Origin: Meridianimarinicoccus sp. MJW13
GTDB taxonomy: Bacteria > Pseudomonadota > Alphaproteobacteria > Rhodobacterales > Rhodobacteraceae
Assembly (NCBI RefSeq): GCF_014901205.1
Contig: NZ_JACNMU010000001.1
Location: forward strand, 186,001 to 250,000
Direction: 5' to 3'
DNA length: 64,000 nt
The notes under the pieces are model-generated. The model made no database searches. It had not been told where the DNA came from and saw nothing but the letters and a program-made list of their open reading frames with translations. Every line of letters begins with the position of its first letter. The first letter of the stretch is position 1. The position numbers and the translations under genes are program-made. Of the stretch, positions 42,300 through 52,622 are shown in pieces.

Positions 42300-43382
42300 T
42301 CAGGCCATACCACCCTGAATGAGTCGCTGGGCCAGCGCCCGGTACGGCGCTGCCAGAGGGCTGTCGGTGGCCGCGATGGGGGTTCCATCATCCCCGGCCA
42401 GCCGCACATCCAGATCCAGCGGCAGCGCCCCAAGGAAGGGGGCGTCCAGCTTCTCGGCCTCGGCCTCGACGCCGCCATGGCCGAAGATATGCGCCTCGTG
42501 ACCGCATTCGGGACAGACATAGGTGCTCATGTTCTCGATCAGGCCCAGAACCGGCGTATTCAGGCGCTTGAACATGTCCAGCGCCCGCCGGGCATCCAGA
42601 AGCGCCACGTCCTGCGGGGTCGATACAACGAGGGCCCCGGTCAGTTGGGTTTTCTGGCACAGGGTCAGCTGGACGTCGCCGGTGCCCGGCGGCATGTCGA
42701 CCAGCAGCACATCCAGCTTGCCCCACTCCACCTGCCCCAGCATCTGCTGCAACGCGCCCATCAGCATCGGCCCGCGCCAGACCACGGCGGCATCGGGATC
42801 GACCATGAAACCGATCGACATCAAGGTGACCCCATGTGCCTGCAGCGGAATGATGGTCTTGCCATCGGGCGAGGCCGGACGTTTGTTGATCCCCATCATC
42901 CGCGGCACCGAGGGGCCGTAGATGTCCGCATCCAGCAGGCCGACCTTGCGACCTTCGCGCGCCAGCGCCACGGCAAGGTTGGTCGAGACGGTGGATTTGC
43001 CGACCCCGCCCTTGCCCGATCCGATGGCAATGATTCGATCCACGCCGGTCACCGCCTGCGGTCCGGCCTGCGGACTGGGATGCTTGCCGACCTTCAGGCT
43101 GGGCGGCGCCGATTGCGCGGCAGGTTTGGCCGCGGGACCATGCGCGGTCAATGCAGCACTGGCCTTCTGCACCCCCGGCAGCGCGGCAACCGCGCGCTCG
43201 GCATCCTCGCGCACACCGCCCCAGGATTTGGCCACCTCCGGCGAGGGCGCCTCGATCACGAACCGCACAGCCGCGCCATCCACGGTCAGGGCCCGGACCA
43301 GATCGCGGGACACCAGGGTTCCGCCGTCGGGAAGCGCGATGCCACCCAGGGCGTCAAGAATTTCGGATTTCGATATCGGCAT
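42300..43382 (-). CDS. mrp: Mrp/ApbC-type iron-sulfur carrier ATPase
   Basis: A 360-residue P-loop ATPase of the Mrp/NBP35 family that carries and transfers Fe-S clusters. An N-terminal MIP18/DUF59-like domain (about 1-85) leads into an Ala/Pro-rich linker and the ATPase domain with the deviant Walker A motif GSGKGGVGKSTVSTNLA. The cluster-binding CxxC is YVCPECGHEAHIFG. The ATG at 43382 (MPISKSEILDAL) is preferred to one four codons upstream, since GAGGA precedes it closely. It reads away from the small-RNA locus and is followed by a terminator. Confidence 0.93.
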   Translation of the reverse strand: MPISKSEILDALGGIALPDGGTLVSRDLVRALTVDGAAVRFVIEAPSPEVAKSWGGVREDAERAVAALPGVQKASAALTAHGPAAKPAAQSAPPSLKVGKHPSPQAGPQAVTGVDRIIAIGSGKGGVGKSTVSTNLAVALAREGRKVGLLDADIYGPSVPRMMGINKRPASPDGKTIIPLQAHGVTLMSIGFMVDPDAAVVWRGPMLMGALQQMLGQVEWGKLDVLLVDMPPGTGDVQLTLCQKTQLTGALVVSTPQDVALLDARRALDMFKRLNTPVLGLIENMSTYVCPECGHEAHIFGHGGVEAEAEKLDAPFLGALPLDLDVRLAGDDGTPIAATDSPLAAPYRALAQRLIQGGMA

Positions 43383-43498
43383 GGTTCCTCGCATACTTGC
43401 TCACCCGCCATACATGATGCGGCGCGACAGACCTGCAACTTAGGACCCGGCGATGCAACCCATGCAGAAAACGCATAGCGGCTCTGAAGCGGCGGCTA

Positions 43499-43526
43499 TT
43501 GTGCGCCCGCAGAAAAAGGCTATCTT
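43499..43526 (+). promoter_or_regulatory. Possible promoter of the small-RNA locus
   Basis: TTGTGC and TATCTT are 16 bases apart; the overlapping CTATCT also resembles the heat-shock sigma (RpoH) minus-10 element known from Rhodobacter. Transcription from here would run about 118 bases before the first hairpin, crossing a 24-codon frame (43564-43638) without a clear ribosome-binding site. Weak evidence. Confidence 0.3.
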
Positions 43527-43649
43527 TCTTTCAACGGCGGCAGAAAGGATCCTGCAGCCCGGGATGGAAAGCGAAAGATCAAGACCTACATCAGGTTCAG
43601 ATCATCGCTGGCGAGCAAATTTCGCCCCATCTCGATGACAGACAAAGTT

Positions 43650-43685
43650 CAGAAGGCCCTCCTCCTCCCTGGGTTTTCTGTTTTT
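43650..43685 (+). ncRNA. Cuckoo-type (CCUCCUCCC loop) small RNA, first copy
   Basis: CAGAAGGCCC (43650-43659) pairs with GGGTTTTCTG (43671-43680) to form a ten-pair stem with two G-U wobbles, leaving the loop TCCTCCTCCCT, followed at once by TTTTT. The loop exposes CCUCCUCCC, which is complementary to the Shine-Dalgarno sequence, and the hairpin doubles as an intrinsic terminator. Such hairpins define the 'cuckoo' small RNAs of alphaproteobacteria, including the stress-induced CcsR RNAs of Rhodobacter sphaeroides. The T-tail fixes the plus strand. The 5' end cannot be placed from sequence. Confidence 0.8.
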
Positions 43686-43728
43686 AGCGGCGGCACCCTC
43701 CTCCTCCCTGGTGTCGCCGCTTTCTTTG
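43686..43728 (+). ncRNA. Cuckoo-type (CCUCCUCCC loop) small RNA, second copy
   Basis: AGCGGCGGCACC (43686-43697) pairs with GGTGTCGCCGCT (43710-43721) over twelve positions with one wobble, with the loop CTCCTCCTCCCT and the tail TTCTTTG. The loop is the same anti-Shine-Dalgarno motif as the copy that ends directly upstream, but the stems are unrelated in sequence, so only the loop is conserved. Tandem cuckoo hairpins processed from one transcript are known in the Rhodobacter CcsR locus. Here no DUF1127 gene precedes them. Confidence 0.8.
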
Positions 43729-43854
43729 TTCTGCGCGGACAGGGATCGGGCGGACATTATTTCAGCGCATGACAAAAATGTGAGCCGTAGAGCGCGCACA
43801 GCCTTGCAGCGCCGTCGCCCCAGGTTCCAGGTCTGACAGGGTATCAGGAGTGTT

Positions 43855-44232
43855 TCAGGCCGTTCGTCGCTGGCTGGACGAGTCGATAAGCGCGCAGGAT
43901 TCCATCAGATCCTCGATATCGACGGGCTTGCGATGCACCGTCACCACCAGTTGCGATCCGGCTTGCATCTTGCCTTCGGCCACATCCGCTGCACCGGTCA
44001 CGATGATGACCTTGCAGTCGGGATTGACGGCTTCGATCTCGCCGATCAGCGACATGCCGTTCTCGCGCCCGAGATAGAGATCCAGAATCACCGCGTCATA
44101 GGATGTCTGCGACAGGGCCGAACTCGCCGCGCCCAGGTTGTCCGCCTCGGTCACCTGATATCCCCGATCGCACAGGATCGTTCGCCACAACAGCCTCAGG
44201 TTCGGATCATCCTCGACAATGAGATAATGCAA
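43855..44232 (-). CDS. Single-domain response regulator (receiver only)
   Basis: A 125-residue CheY-like receiver with no output domain. All switch residues are present: acidic pair Asp8-Asp9 (IVEDDPNL), phosphorylation site Asp51 (VILDLYLG), Thr79 (IIVTGAAD) and Lys102 (HRKPVD). It would take phosphate from a histidine kinase and act by protein contact. I chose TTG at 44232 because GGAG lies eight bases before it and the receiver fold starts right there; no in-frame ATG exists before the receiver until an upstream position with no homology. It lies 108 bases downstream of uvrD and 126 bases from the cuckoo RNAs; no kinase gene adjoins it. Confidence 0.85.
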   Translation of the reverse strand: MHYLIVEDDPNLRLLWRTILCDRGYQVTEADNLGAASSALSQTSYDAVILDLYLGRENGMSLIGEIEAVNPDCKVIIVTGAADVAEGKMQAGSQLVVTVHRKPVDIEDLMESCALIDSSSQRRTA

Positions 44233-44252
44233 TACTGAAACTCCAATGCGGC

Positions 44253-44275
44253 AAAAAGTTGCGTGCTGATGCAAC
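44253..44275 (-). terminator. Weak terminator after uvrD
   Basis: On the minus strand GTTGC and GCAAC pair around an eight-base loop and are followed by TTTTT. The stem is only five pairs, so it may leak into the downstream receiver gene. Confidence 0.45.
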
Positions 44276-44340
44276 GCATACCGAAATATCCGGCAAGTTT
44301 CCAGCATTCCATACGTATTTTTTGCACTTGCAGAAATCGA

Positions 44341-46713
44341 TTAGAACGGAATGTCGTCCGCTGATTCTGCCGCAACCACGAATTTGGCCACGATGTGCTT
44401 GGATCCGGCCTTGTCGAAGTCGACTTTCAGCTTGTCGCCCTCGATCCCGGAGACCGTGCCGTAGCCGAATTTCTGGTGAAACACCCGGTCCCCTTCCGAG
44501 AAGGCCGACACCGCCTGCAGGTCGATGACCGAGTTGCGGCTTTCGCGTGGCTGCGACACCGGCCGGGTACTGCTGCGCGCCTGAAGCCGCCGCCATCCGG
44601 GCGAATCGTAGCCATCGGCCTTTGCAGCCTTTTCGTGCAGGTTAGATGTGGCCTGCGCTTGCGGGGCGGCTGCGCCATAGCCGCCGCCATACAGGCCCGG
44701 CGGCGTCAGCACCTCGACATTCGCTTCGGGCAGTTCATCCACAAAGCGCGATGGCAGGGCCGATTGCCACTGGCCATAGACCCGGCGGTTGGCCGCGAAA
44801 GAGATTGTGCACAGCTCTTCCGCCCGCGTGATGCCGACATAGGCCAGCCGCCGTTCCTCTTCCAACCCGGTCTGGCCGTTTTCATCCATCGAGCGTTGCG
44901 AGGGAAACAGCCCGTCCTCCCACCCCGGCAGGAACACCGCCGGAAATTCCAGCCCCTTGGCCGCGTGCAAGGTCATGATCGACACCTTCGGGCCGCCGTC
45001 GTCGGTTTCGTTGTCCATGATCAGCGCGACATGTTCCAGAAACCCCTGCAGGTTCTCGAATTGCTCCAGCGCCTTGACCAGTTCCTTCAGGTTCTCCAGC
45101 CGCCCCGGCGCCTCGGGCGTCTTGTCGGCCTGCCACATGCCCGTATAGCCCGAGCCATCCAGCACGGTTTCGGCCAGCGCGATATGGTCATAGGTGGTAT
45201 CGGCCACCACCACCCCGTGCCAGCGGTCCAGCGCGGTCACCAGCTTGGCCAGTTCGGTCTTGCCCTTGCCCTTCAACAGCCCGGACTCGACCGCGATCCG
45301 CGCACCCTCCAGAAGACTTGCGCCATTGGCGCGCGCCGCCTGCTGGATCGTTTGCTGCGCCTTGTCGCCCAGACCCCGCTTGGGCAGGTTCACGATGCGT
45401 TCAAAGGCCAGATCGTCGTCGGGACTGACCACCAGCCGGAAATAGGCCATGGCATCGCGGATCTCGCGCCGCTCATAGAAACGCGGGCCGCCGATCACGC
45501 GATAGGGCAGACCAATGGTCAGAAACCGATCCTCGAACGCCCGCATCTGGTGGCTGGCGCGCACGAGGATCGCGCATTCGTTCAGCGTGTAGGGCCGCCC
45601 GCCACGCGCGCCGCCCTGCATGGCGTCCAGTTCCTCGCCAATCCAGCGCGCCTCCTCCTCGGCATCCCAATGGCCGATCAGGCGCACCCGGTCGCCGCCG
45701 TCGGCCTCGGTCCACAGGGTCTTGCCCAGCCGCCCCTTGTTCCCGGCGATCACGCCGGAAGCGGCGGCCAGGATATGCGCCGTGGAGCGGTAATTCTGCT
45801 CCAGCCGGATCACCGTGGCGCCGGGGAAATCCTTTTCGAACCGCAGGATGTTGCCGACCTCGGCCCCGCGCCAGCCATAAATCGACTGGTCGTCATCGCC
45901 GACACAGCAAATGTCGCGATGCCCCGCCGCCAACAGACGCAGCCACAGGTACTGTGCGATGTTGGTGTCCTGGTATTCGTCCACAAGGATATAGCGGAAC
46001 CAGCGCTGGTATTGCGCCAGCACGTCTTCGTGCCGCTGGAAGATCGTCACCATGTGCAGCAGCAGATCGCCGAAATCCACGGCGTTCAGATCGCGCAGCC
46101 GCTGTTGATAGTCAGCGTATAGCGTCACGCCCATGTTGTTGAACCCCGAGCCTTCGGCGGCCGGCACATGTTCGGGCGTCCAGGCGCGGTTCTTCCAATG
46201 GTCGATCATCCCGGCCAACTGCCGTGCCGGCCAGCGCTTTTCGTCGATGTTGCGGGCCAGGATTACCTGTTTCAGCAGGCGGATCTGATCGTCGGTGTCC
46301 AGAATGGTGAAGTTCGACTTCAGCCCGGCCAGTTCCGCATGGCGGCGCAGCAACTTGACGTTGATGGCGTGGAAAGTGCCCAGCCAGGGCAGGCCGTCGA
46401 CCTCCATCCCCATCAGCTTGGCCACCCGCAGCTTCATCTCGCGCGCGGCCTTGTTGGTGAAGGTCACCGCCAGAATTTCATTGGGGCGTGCGGTGCCGGT
46501 GTTCAGTAGATGCGCGATGCGGGCCGTCAGGGCGCGGGTCTTGCCGGTGCCGGCGCCGGCCAGCATCAGCACCGGGCCTTTCAGCGTCTCGACCGCCTGC
46601 CGCTGCGCCGGGTTCAGCCCGTCCAGATACGGCGTGGGCCGCGCGGCCATGGCGCGGGCCGACAGAGGTGTGGGGGCATCGGCAAAGGCGCCGTCATCGT
46701 CATATCCGCTCAT
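44341..46713 (-). CDS. uvrD: DNA helicase II (UvrD/PcrA type)
   Basis: A 790-residue superfamily 1A helicase that unwinds DNA 3'-5' in nucleotide-excision and mismatch repair. It has the Q motif NPAQRQAVET, Walker A AGAGTGKTRALTARI, motif II VDEYQDTN, GDDDQSIYGWRGAEV, the later MTLHAAKGLEFPAV and VGITRAEE. The C-terminal about 70 residues contain a Tudor-like tail (RVFHQKFGYGTVSGIEGDKL) that in PcrA-like proteins contacts RNA polymerase. Length is normal. A GH19 enzyme gene lies upstream on the same strand. Confidence 0.94.
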   Translation of the reverse strand: MSGYDDDGAFADAPTPLSARAMAARPTPYLDGLNPAQRQAVETLKGPVLMLAGAGTGKTRALTARIAHLLNTGTARPNEILAVTFTNKAAREMKLRVAKLMGMEVDGLPWLGTFHAINVKLLRRHAELAGLKSNFTILDTDDQIRLLKQVILARNIDEKRWPARQLAGMIDHWKNRAWTPEHVPAAEGSGFNNMGVTLYADYQQRLRDLNAVDFGDLLLHMVTIFQRHEDVLAQYQRWFRYILVDEYQDTNIAQYLWLRLLAAGHRDICCVGDDDQSIYGWRGAEVGNILRFEKDFPGATVIRLEQNYRSTAHILAAASGVIAGNKGRLGKTLWTEADGGDRVRLIGHWDAEEEARWIGEELDAMQGGARGGRPYTLNECAILVRASHQMRAFEDRFLTIGLPYRVIGGPRFYERREIRDAMAYFRLVVSPDDDLAFERIVNLPKRGLGDKAQQTIQQAARANGASLLEGARIAVESGLLKGKGKTELAKLVTALDRWHGVVVADTTYDHIALAETVLDGSGYTGMWQADKTPEAPGRLENLKELVKALEQFENLQGFLEHVALIMDNETDDGGPKVSIMTLHAAKGLEFPAVFLPGWEDGLFPSQRSMDENGQTGLEEERRLAYVGITRAEELCTISFAANRRVYGQWQSALPSRFVDELPEANVEVLTPPGLYGGGYGAAAPQAQATSNLHEKAAKADGYDSPGWRRLQARSSTRPVSQPRESRNSVIDLQAVSAFSEGDRVFHQKFGYGTVSGIEGDKLKVDFDKAGSKHIVAKFVVAAESADDIPF

Positions 46714-52450: not shown

Positions 52451-52525
52451 GCGGGCGTAGCTCAGGGGTAGAGCATAACCTTGCCAAGGTTAGGGTCGTG
52501 AGTTCGAATCTCATCGCCCGCTCCA
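52451..52525 (+). tRNA. tRNA-Gly (anticodon GCC), first copy
   Basis: A 75-base cloverleaf with an encoded CCA end. The acceptor stem GCGGGCG/CGCCCGC is perfect, the D-arm is GCTC-AGGGGTA-GAGC, the anticodon stem-loop is ACCTTGCCAAGGT with anticodon GCC, and the T-arm has GTTCGAATC. It reads GGC and GGU glycine codons. A second identical gene follows 22 bases later. Confidence 0.97.
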
Positions 52526-52547: not shown

Positions 52548-52622
52548 GCGGGCGTAGCTCAGGGGTAGAGCATAACCTTGCCAAGGTTAGGGTCGTGAGT
52601 TCGAATCTCATCGCCCGCTCCA
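52548..52622 (+). tRNA. tRNA-Gly (anticodon GCC), second copy
   Basis: Identical over 75 bases to the copy at 52451, including the encoded CCA, and preceded by the same GGAT. The pair is a recent tandem duplication probably expressed from one promoter. Glycine GGC is very frequent in this GC-rich genome, which makes extra gene dosage useful. Confidence 0.97.

Follow-up and report, generated by a model that had tools for sequence, protein, structure and literature searches.

The window, by which we mean the whole stretch of 64,000 nucleotides that was analysed, most likely carries on its plus strand a gene for a small RNA of the cuckoo (CcsR / ar14) type. According to this reading, to which a probability of roughly 0.83 was assigned, a promoter of the RpoH kind would give rise to an RNA of about 195 nt whose loops would pair with Shine-Dalgarno sequences under stress, and the gene would be a one-pair counterpart of the CIN1/CcsR locus that lacks DUF1127. 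The reading rests on the observed structure of a hairpin pair, the conservation of its loops, its similarity to covariance models, its conserved chromosomal position and a conserved promoter element. Counted against it were the model scores, which lie below the gathering scores, the missing DUF1127 partner, a promoter element that is off at two positions, and the lack of enrichment of targets. The coordinates of the features are given in Table 1.

Table 1. Features of the hairpin pair, its upstream region and the neighbouring genes in the window.
Feature	Positions	Strand	Details and basis
Promoter element TTGTGCANNYGCAGCA, overlapping the -35 TTG	43499..43514	+	Window copy TTGTGCGCCCGCAGAA; 14/16 match
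-10-like box CTATCTTT, putative RpoH (sigma-32)-type promoter	43520..43527	+	Predicted start near 43534; genus comparison
5' leader, where DUF1127 stands in most relatives	43534..43649	+	No conserved ORF; length varies across the genus
Cuckoo hairpin 1	43650..43680	+	Arms 43650-43659 and 43671-43680; loop 43660-43670, UCCUCCUCCCU; CCUCCUCCC at 43661-43669
T-tract TTTTT, 3' of hairpin 1	43681..43685	+	Sequence
Cuckoo hairpin 2	43686..43721	+	Arms 43686-43697 and 43710-43721; loop 43698-43709, CUCCUCCUCCCU; CCUCCUCCC at 43700-43708
T-rich TTCTTTG, 3' of hairpin 2, probable 3' end	43722..43728	+	Sequence; longer T runs in genus orthologues
mrp (NUBPL/ApbC-type Fe-S P-loop ATPase), conserved divergent neighbour	42300..43394	-	Pfam PF10609, E = 3e-100
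Receiver-only response regulator, located between uvrD and the hairpin pair	43855..44307	-	PF00072 Response_reg, E = 6e-19
UvrD/PcrA helicase, a more distant convergent neighbour at many loci of the family	44341..46713	-	PF00580

Structure, conservation and family of the hairpin pair

Two adjacent hairpins with unrelated stems were found at 43650-43721 on the plus strand, and CCUCCUCCC was exposed in both loops. Folding of positions 43640-43735 gave -40.4 kcal/mol (z = -6.24), a stability that was equalled by none of 200 shuffled sequences. These results confirmed the sequence-only reading, which had described adjacent plus-strand hairpins with loops of 11 and 12 bases, a common CCUCCUCCC and unrelated stems. 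It had also held that each hairpin ends in a T-tract; this was correct for hairpin 1, but the tract after hairpin 2 is interrupted in the window, where the longest run is 3, compared to 5, 7, 7, 7 and 8 T in five orthologues. Hairpin 2 and the T-rich stretch after it probably form an intrinsic terminator. Neither hairpin was listed by a simple terminator scan with a loop limit of 8.

The tandem loop pattern was matched once in the window and never in 100 shuffles of it. Across 61 genomes there were 112 matches, distributed over 26 of the genomes, compared to 16 for the pattern read backwards; this backward control is not clean, since CCCTCCTCC also fits long cuckoo loops and the hairpin pair itself accounts for the one backward match of the window. 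The bare 9-mer was not enriched genome-wide (12 occurrences, compared to 20 for the string read backwards).

When the six genus orthologues were aligned, variable columns numbered 0/18 in the 9-mers, 1/23 in the whole loops, 14/44 in the stems and 21/29 in the flank and spacer, so that both 9-mers were invariant in all six sequences; the difference in variability between stems and loops gave p = 0.012 in Fisher's test. Stem pairing was retained in 99.2% of cells and three pairs were changed on both sides, a number reached by 6 of 500 shuffles, and the number of standard pair types in these orthologues was not above that of the shuffles (9, compared to a mean of 8.9). Conservation of the loops rather than the stems had been proposed beforehand, with loops drifting as fast as the stems named as evidence against it; no such drift was seen among the orthologues.

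Since the genus loci were first found through the 9-mer, loop invariance is partly built into this comparison, an effect that is lessened and not removed by a check anchored on mrp. Five of the seven genomes of the genus showed both loops upstream of mrp in the anchored comparison. The sequence piece of G001 extends no further than 174 bp upstream of mrp and includes the exact promoter element; in G002 there was no full mrp match, and the pair, the receiver gene and uvrD were retained. About 320 bp beyond its mrp-linked pair, G003 carries a further unit (L023 1813-1891) that has a separate promoter element and in which one loop reads UUCUCCUCCCCC; this unit lies outside the cluster count of G003, given the splitting of clusters at gaps of more than 250 bases. 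The altered loop of this paralogous unit counts against strict loop invariance.

A standard Rfam scan of the window returned two tRNAs only. Two identical tandem tRNA genes are present at 52451-52522 and 52548-52619, and visual inspection of the alignment gave the anticodon as GCC (glycine). A more permissive scan, covering 506 bases, yielded eight matches, led by CcsR1 (RF02791; 46.8 bits, E = 2e-10) and ar14 (RF02344; 43.0 bits, E = 1e-6). Both scores fall below gathering (65.3 and 58.8 bits, respectively), and the pair is therefore assigned to the cuckoo family in the broad sense, without membership of CcsR1 or ar14 at the Rfam threshold. The six genus orthologues scored 44-53 bits with CcsR1. 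Applied to 149 family genomes, the CcsR1 model gave a match in 121, of which 8 genomes were above the cut-off, which shows that the Rfam cut-off passes over most family matches; in 14 control genomes there was one match, in Thermus composti, under the cut-off. The assignment to the cuckoo type, which the sequence-only reading had made and for which it had called for a covariance search, is supported by this search, by the tandem hairpins that leave CCUCCUCCC unpaired in their loops, and by conserved loops on divergent yet base-paired stems, the G003 unit being the exception.

Of the known systems, CcsR1-4 (RSs0680a-d) with ccaF1 of Rhodobacter sphaeroides provided the best covariance-model match and share with the window the two-hairpin unit with CCUCCUCCC loops. 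They differ in having four sRNAs with a DUF1127 gene in front, whereas the window has one pair, none in front and a score below gathering. The top-scoring CcsR1 array (G081, 106 bits) is also found beside mrp with DUF1127 between them; R. sphaeroides 2.4.1, judged by name, was outside the records compared. The cuckoo RNA family and the CIN1 locus, reportedly described by Reinkensmeier and Giegerich in 2015, have the loop motif on divergent stems as in the window, which lacks the DUF1127 gene. The ar14 / NfeR1 RNAs of Sinorhizobium and relatives, in the excerpts of PMC10746234, carry the same CCUCCUCCC loops on variable stems; they have three anti-Shine-Dalgarno hairpins compared to two in the window, and their promoter is reported to be of the RpoD type, while the window box appears to be of the RpoH type. 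The aR8 sRNAs (MmgR, SisA-D) resemble the window pair as alphaproteobacterial sRNAs with an anti-Shine-Dalgarno signature (PMC12559287, in excerpt), but they are a different RNA family.

Chromosomal position, DUF1127 and array length

At least 118 loci were named, each a cluster of two or more loops, with clusters split at gaps of more than 250 bases. Among the 118 matches listed, 17 with less than 1200 bp upstream were set aside, leaving 101 that were assessable. A cuckoo array was found within 2 kb of a divergent mrp gene in 82 of these 101 listed loci, with no mrp in 19; a DUF1127 gene was located between mrp and the array in 72 of the 82, and in 60 of those 72 its frame ended no more than 30 bases from the first loop. 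Among the same listed matches, uvrD was present within 2.6 kb downstream in 32 of the 59 named clusters with enough sequence. When one genome per genus was sampled and anchored on mrp, two or more loops were found upstream of the best mrp match in 36 of 61 genomes, that is, in 28 of the 30 best-scoring genomes compared to 8 of the 31 that scored lower. For the 25 genomes without such loops, the best match may be a paralogue, the piece may lack mrp, or the locus may be absent.

The window pair lies beside a divergent mrp gene, as do the DUF1127-cuckoo arrays. It had been noted from the sequence that the pair is situated between mrp and a receiver-only regulator, and these neighbours are as stated; the implication that the location is unusual did not hold, since the mrp side is the usual site (82/101 among the matches listed). 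The receiver gene is a local addition to this site. Five of the seven genomes of the genus have it at this position (L021, L024, L040, L043 and L046); in the other two the contig stops before reaching it.

The DUF1127 gene that stands directly upstream of the array and is co-transcribed with it in CIN1 / ccaF-CcsR was missing from the window. A search of all six frames between 43395 and 43700 at maximum sensitivity found no DUF1127 gene or remnant (best score 1.7 bits), and the mrp-linked locus was without DUF1127 in all six genus orthologues, in agreement with the earlier statement that the pair lacks the gene that precedes CcsR. The three DUF1127 matches of the window genome are all on other contigs. 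By position, promoter and structure, the window locus is the counterpart of the CcsR-type (CIN1/CcsR) locus without DUF1127 and with an array of one pair. It represents a natural minimal version of CcsR, with one pair, no ccaF1 alongside, the same position and a related promoter, and the purpose of the DUF1127 protein can therefore be addressed by genome comparison and not by deletion alone.

Arrays without DUF1127 were shorter. Among the matches listed, the 101 assessable loci minus the 19 without mrp and a further 17 whose array end lay outside the sequence left 65 for comparison: the seven without DUF1127 had 2, 2, 2, 2, 3, 4 and 6 loops, compared to 2-16 loops in the 58 with DUF1127 (p = 1.5e-4, kinship ignored), and two of the seven belong to the genus of the window. 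With those 17 listed loci restored (72 with and 10 without DUF1127) the result was similar (p = 3.6e-4, kinship ignored). A counterexample is L078, with 12 loops and no DUF1127 found. With one genome per genus, 5 without and 34 with DUF1127 gave p = 0.035, again with kinship ignored; this test leaves out G087, which has neither loops nor DUF1127, along with the genomes in which both features are missing and the remaining genus members. CcaF1 is reported to join RNase E in the maturation of CcsR RNA (PMC10253847, in excerpt), and raised CcaF1 to interfere with that maturation (excerpts of PMC8307010), so that its role is not simple. A single pair would have less to process, which would fit the short arrays that lack DUF1127.

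Cuckoo loops were also found in other arrangements. Free-standing pairs in the genus (L022, L041, L045 and L047) lack DUF1127 and carry the promoter element 47-76 nt upstream of their first loop; three of them (L041, L045 and L047) are in G003, at distances of 47-49 nt. In G005 a pair away from mrp (L025, G005:C23:13453-13500) is preceded by a DUF1127 gene and the promoter element, while the mrp-linked pair of the same genome is without DUF1127. The window genome has a second cuckoo pair (L009 2001-2049; G000:C20:140878-140926, minus strand), which scored 60.4 bits with CcsR1 and is located about 170 bp after nagA, with an opposite-strand EamA-type frame running into the pair and only a loose variant of the promoter element (11/16) upstream. 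Orthology of this pair with others was considered and rejected, as nagA and the EamA-type gene matched no other cuckoo locus compared. Very long mrp-side arrays were seen in L297 (G080) and L291 (G012), with 17 and 15 loops, respectively, within 1500 bp. Locus L128 (CP059262.1), from a record titled as an Exiguobacterium profundum MAG, is a typical mrp-DUF1127-cuckoo-uvrD locus, and the record title is therefore probably wrong.

Promoter element and leader

The locus points to a promoter element common to most of the family loci compared, among the matches listed. In 81 of the 82 mrp-linked named loci, the interval from mrp to the first loop contained the element, TTGTGCA-NN-YGCAGCA, with 14 or more of its 16 positions matching, 66 of these copies being exact, whereas one shuffle of each mrp-to-loop interval reached a maximum of 13/16 (both among the matches listed). 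It was less universal in the mrp-anchored sample: of the 36 genomes that had at least two loops, 32 carried it. It also preceded 28 of the 46 clusters without a detected mrp, compared to 0/46 after shuffling; a few loci are duplicated among these 46 rows, and some rows probably represent motif pairs that arose by chance. Within the genus the match was 15/16 in G003 and 16/16 in G001, G002, G004, G005 and G006, compared to 14/16 in the window.

The -10-like box read CTAT in five of the six genus sequences and CTAG in the sixth. With the C of CTATCT set at -14, TTG falls at -35 and transcription would start at 43534. The window agrees with C-14/T-13 and T-9, positions described for RpoHII/RpoHI promoters in the excerpts of PMC3441632, and lacks the C-37 that is described there. 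The half-sites between the boxes are more invariant than the described RpoH features require, which suggests an operator. A similar palindrome, with three bases between TGC and GCA, is reported for the PhaR site (PMC6201568 and PMC12542648, both in excerpt), and the mmgR promoter carries a TTGTGCA...GCAGCA palindrome bound by PhaR (excerpts of PMC12542648) that has one base fewer between its halves than the cuckoo element. One of the two phasin loci of the window genome (L261) has the PhaR spacing, compared to four bases between TGC and GCA in the cuckoo element. On this difference in spacing, PhaR was rejected as the simplest candidate for the operator's protein.

We tentatively entertain, as a possibility that falls short of an even chance, a joint reading of these data. 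The near-invariant element would be an operator over the -35 box of the Rhodobacteraceae cuckoo promoter, bound by a second regulator besides RpoH that is probably not PhaR; DUF1127 proteins would serve mainly in the processing of long arrays, so that lineages without DUF1127 at this site would tend to keep one or few pairs. Literature searches on the promoter sequence in Rhodobacter and on cuckoo RNAs, DUF1127 and CcsR1, which covered titles and the beginnings of abstracts and left the main cuckoo, CcsR and CcaF1 papers outside their scope, found no description of the element or of the mrp location, which is weak evidence. The promoter element and the link between DUF1127 and the array may be new.

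With up to two mismatches allowed, the element occurred 143 times in the window genome, compared to 73 times when read backwards. Exact copies were also found before a solo DUF1127 gene, in the interval beside pyrC described next, and inside a coding frame (C16:1701). Two copies on opposite strands about 120 bp apart (L200 and L209; G000:C14:507753 and 507873), one exact and one with a single mismatch, lie between what we take, from the translations, to be pyrC on one side and, on the other, a gene whose product is rich in proline, alanine and lysine and has no Pfam match. At L201 an exact element (G000:C15:347183, minus strand) precedes a solo gene for a 71-aa DUF1127 protein (Pfam; 346936-347043), whose divergent neighbour is presumably ribokinase-like. 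The contig of L201 holds none of the CCTCCTCCC sites of the genome.

The leader was examined for coding capacity and structure. A 24-codon ORF at 43565-43639 was rejected as a conserved leader ORF, since it had no counterpart in the leaders of the five other genus members, which contained unrelated short ORFs only. Folded alone, the window leader (43533-43645) was unusually stable (-44.9 kcal/mol, z = -5.5). The five relatives gave z values of -1.48, -0.15, -2.32, 0.06 and -1.82 and had no comparable fold or sequence; a conserved leader structure was therefore rejected, and the leader fold is not counted as belonging to the feature.

Proposed function and alternative explanations

An RpoH-type promoter around 43499-43527 would drive transcription of a roughly 195-nt RNA (approximately 43534-43728), the 3' end of which would consist of the two hairpins, with the second as terminator. 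Each hairpin would present CCUCCUCCC single-stranded in its loop and, most likely under heat or oxidative stress, the loops would pair with the Shine-Dalgarno region of mRNAs and block their translation. The pair RNA may in this way act as an anti-Shine-Dalgarno riboregulator. Its transcription, stress induction, processing and antisense mechanism are predicted by analogy with relatives, for which stress induction (PMC3320616, in excerpt) and the anti-Shine-Dalgarno loops of ar14 (excerpts of PMC10746234 and PMC3927594) are reported.

That the hairpins are transcription terminators and nothing more is very improbable. A T-rich stretch follows each hairpin, as a terminator would require, but the recognised flanking genes (mrp, uvrD and the one for the receiver protein) are encoded on the minus strand, so that the hairpins do not end any of them; moreover, a terminator does not need a conserved loop, yet the 9-mers are invariant in the genus while the stems vary. 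It is also quite improbable that the pair is a functionless, decaying relic of a DUF1127-cuckoo operon. The absence of DUF1127, the single pair, and the mismatches of the promoter element in the window species and in G003, compared to the exact element in the other five genomes, would suit decay. Against it stand the retention of both hairpins in six genomes with compensated stem changes and invariant 9-mers, the CTAT of the -10-like box in 5/6, and the free-standing pairs with their own promoter elsewhere in the genus. A functional minus strand, on which the loops read GGGAGGAGG and would act as a decoy for a GGA-binding protein or as a ribosome-binding site, is exceedingly improbable; mirror hairpins exist there by symmetry, but it is the plus strand that carries the T-tracts and the promoter element and that matches CcsR1 and ar14.

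An unlikely, though credible, alternative is that the loops bind any exposed strong Shine-Dalgarno sequence and cause a broad drop in translation during stress, with no chosen mRNAs. The loop resembles the anti-Shine-Dalgarno sequence itself, and GGGAGGA-N3-10-ATG occurred 92 times in the window genome compared to 9 times when read backwards, so that many genes would offer seven or more pairs; however, these 92 sites could be explained by ordinary ribosome-binding sites. Exact sites for the 9-mer, as a generic dampener would have it, were not enriched, the full complement before ATG being found once in the genome and three times when read backwards, and no target list was therefore drawn up. 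A named target, the flhR mRNA, is on the other hand reported for CcsR in R. sphaeroides (PMC8307010, in excerpt), which counts against this alternative.

Just one GGGAGGAGG in the window genome stands a short distance upstream of an ATG (L230 / L001; G000:C1:4456-4471, minus strand), an occurrence not above chance; it precedes a gene that begins MEAFDHIVVGGGASG. From its translation, we take the product of this gene to be GMC-oxidoreductase-like.
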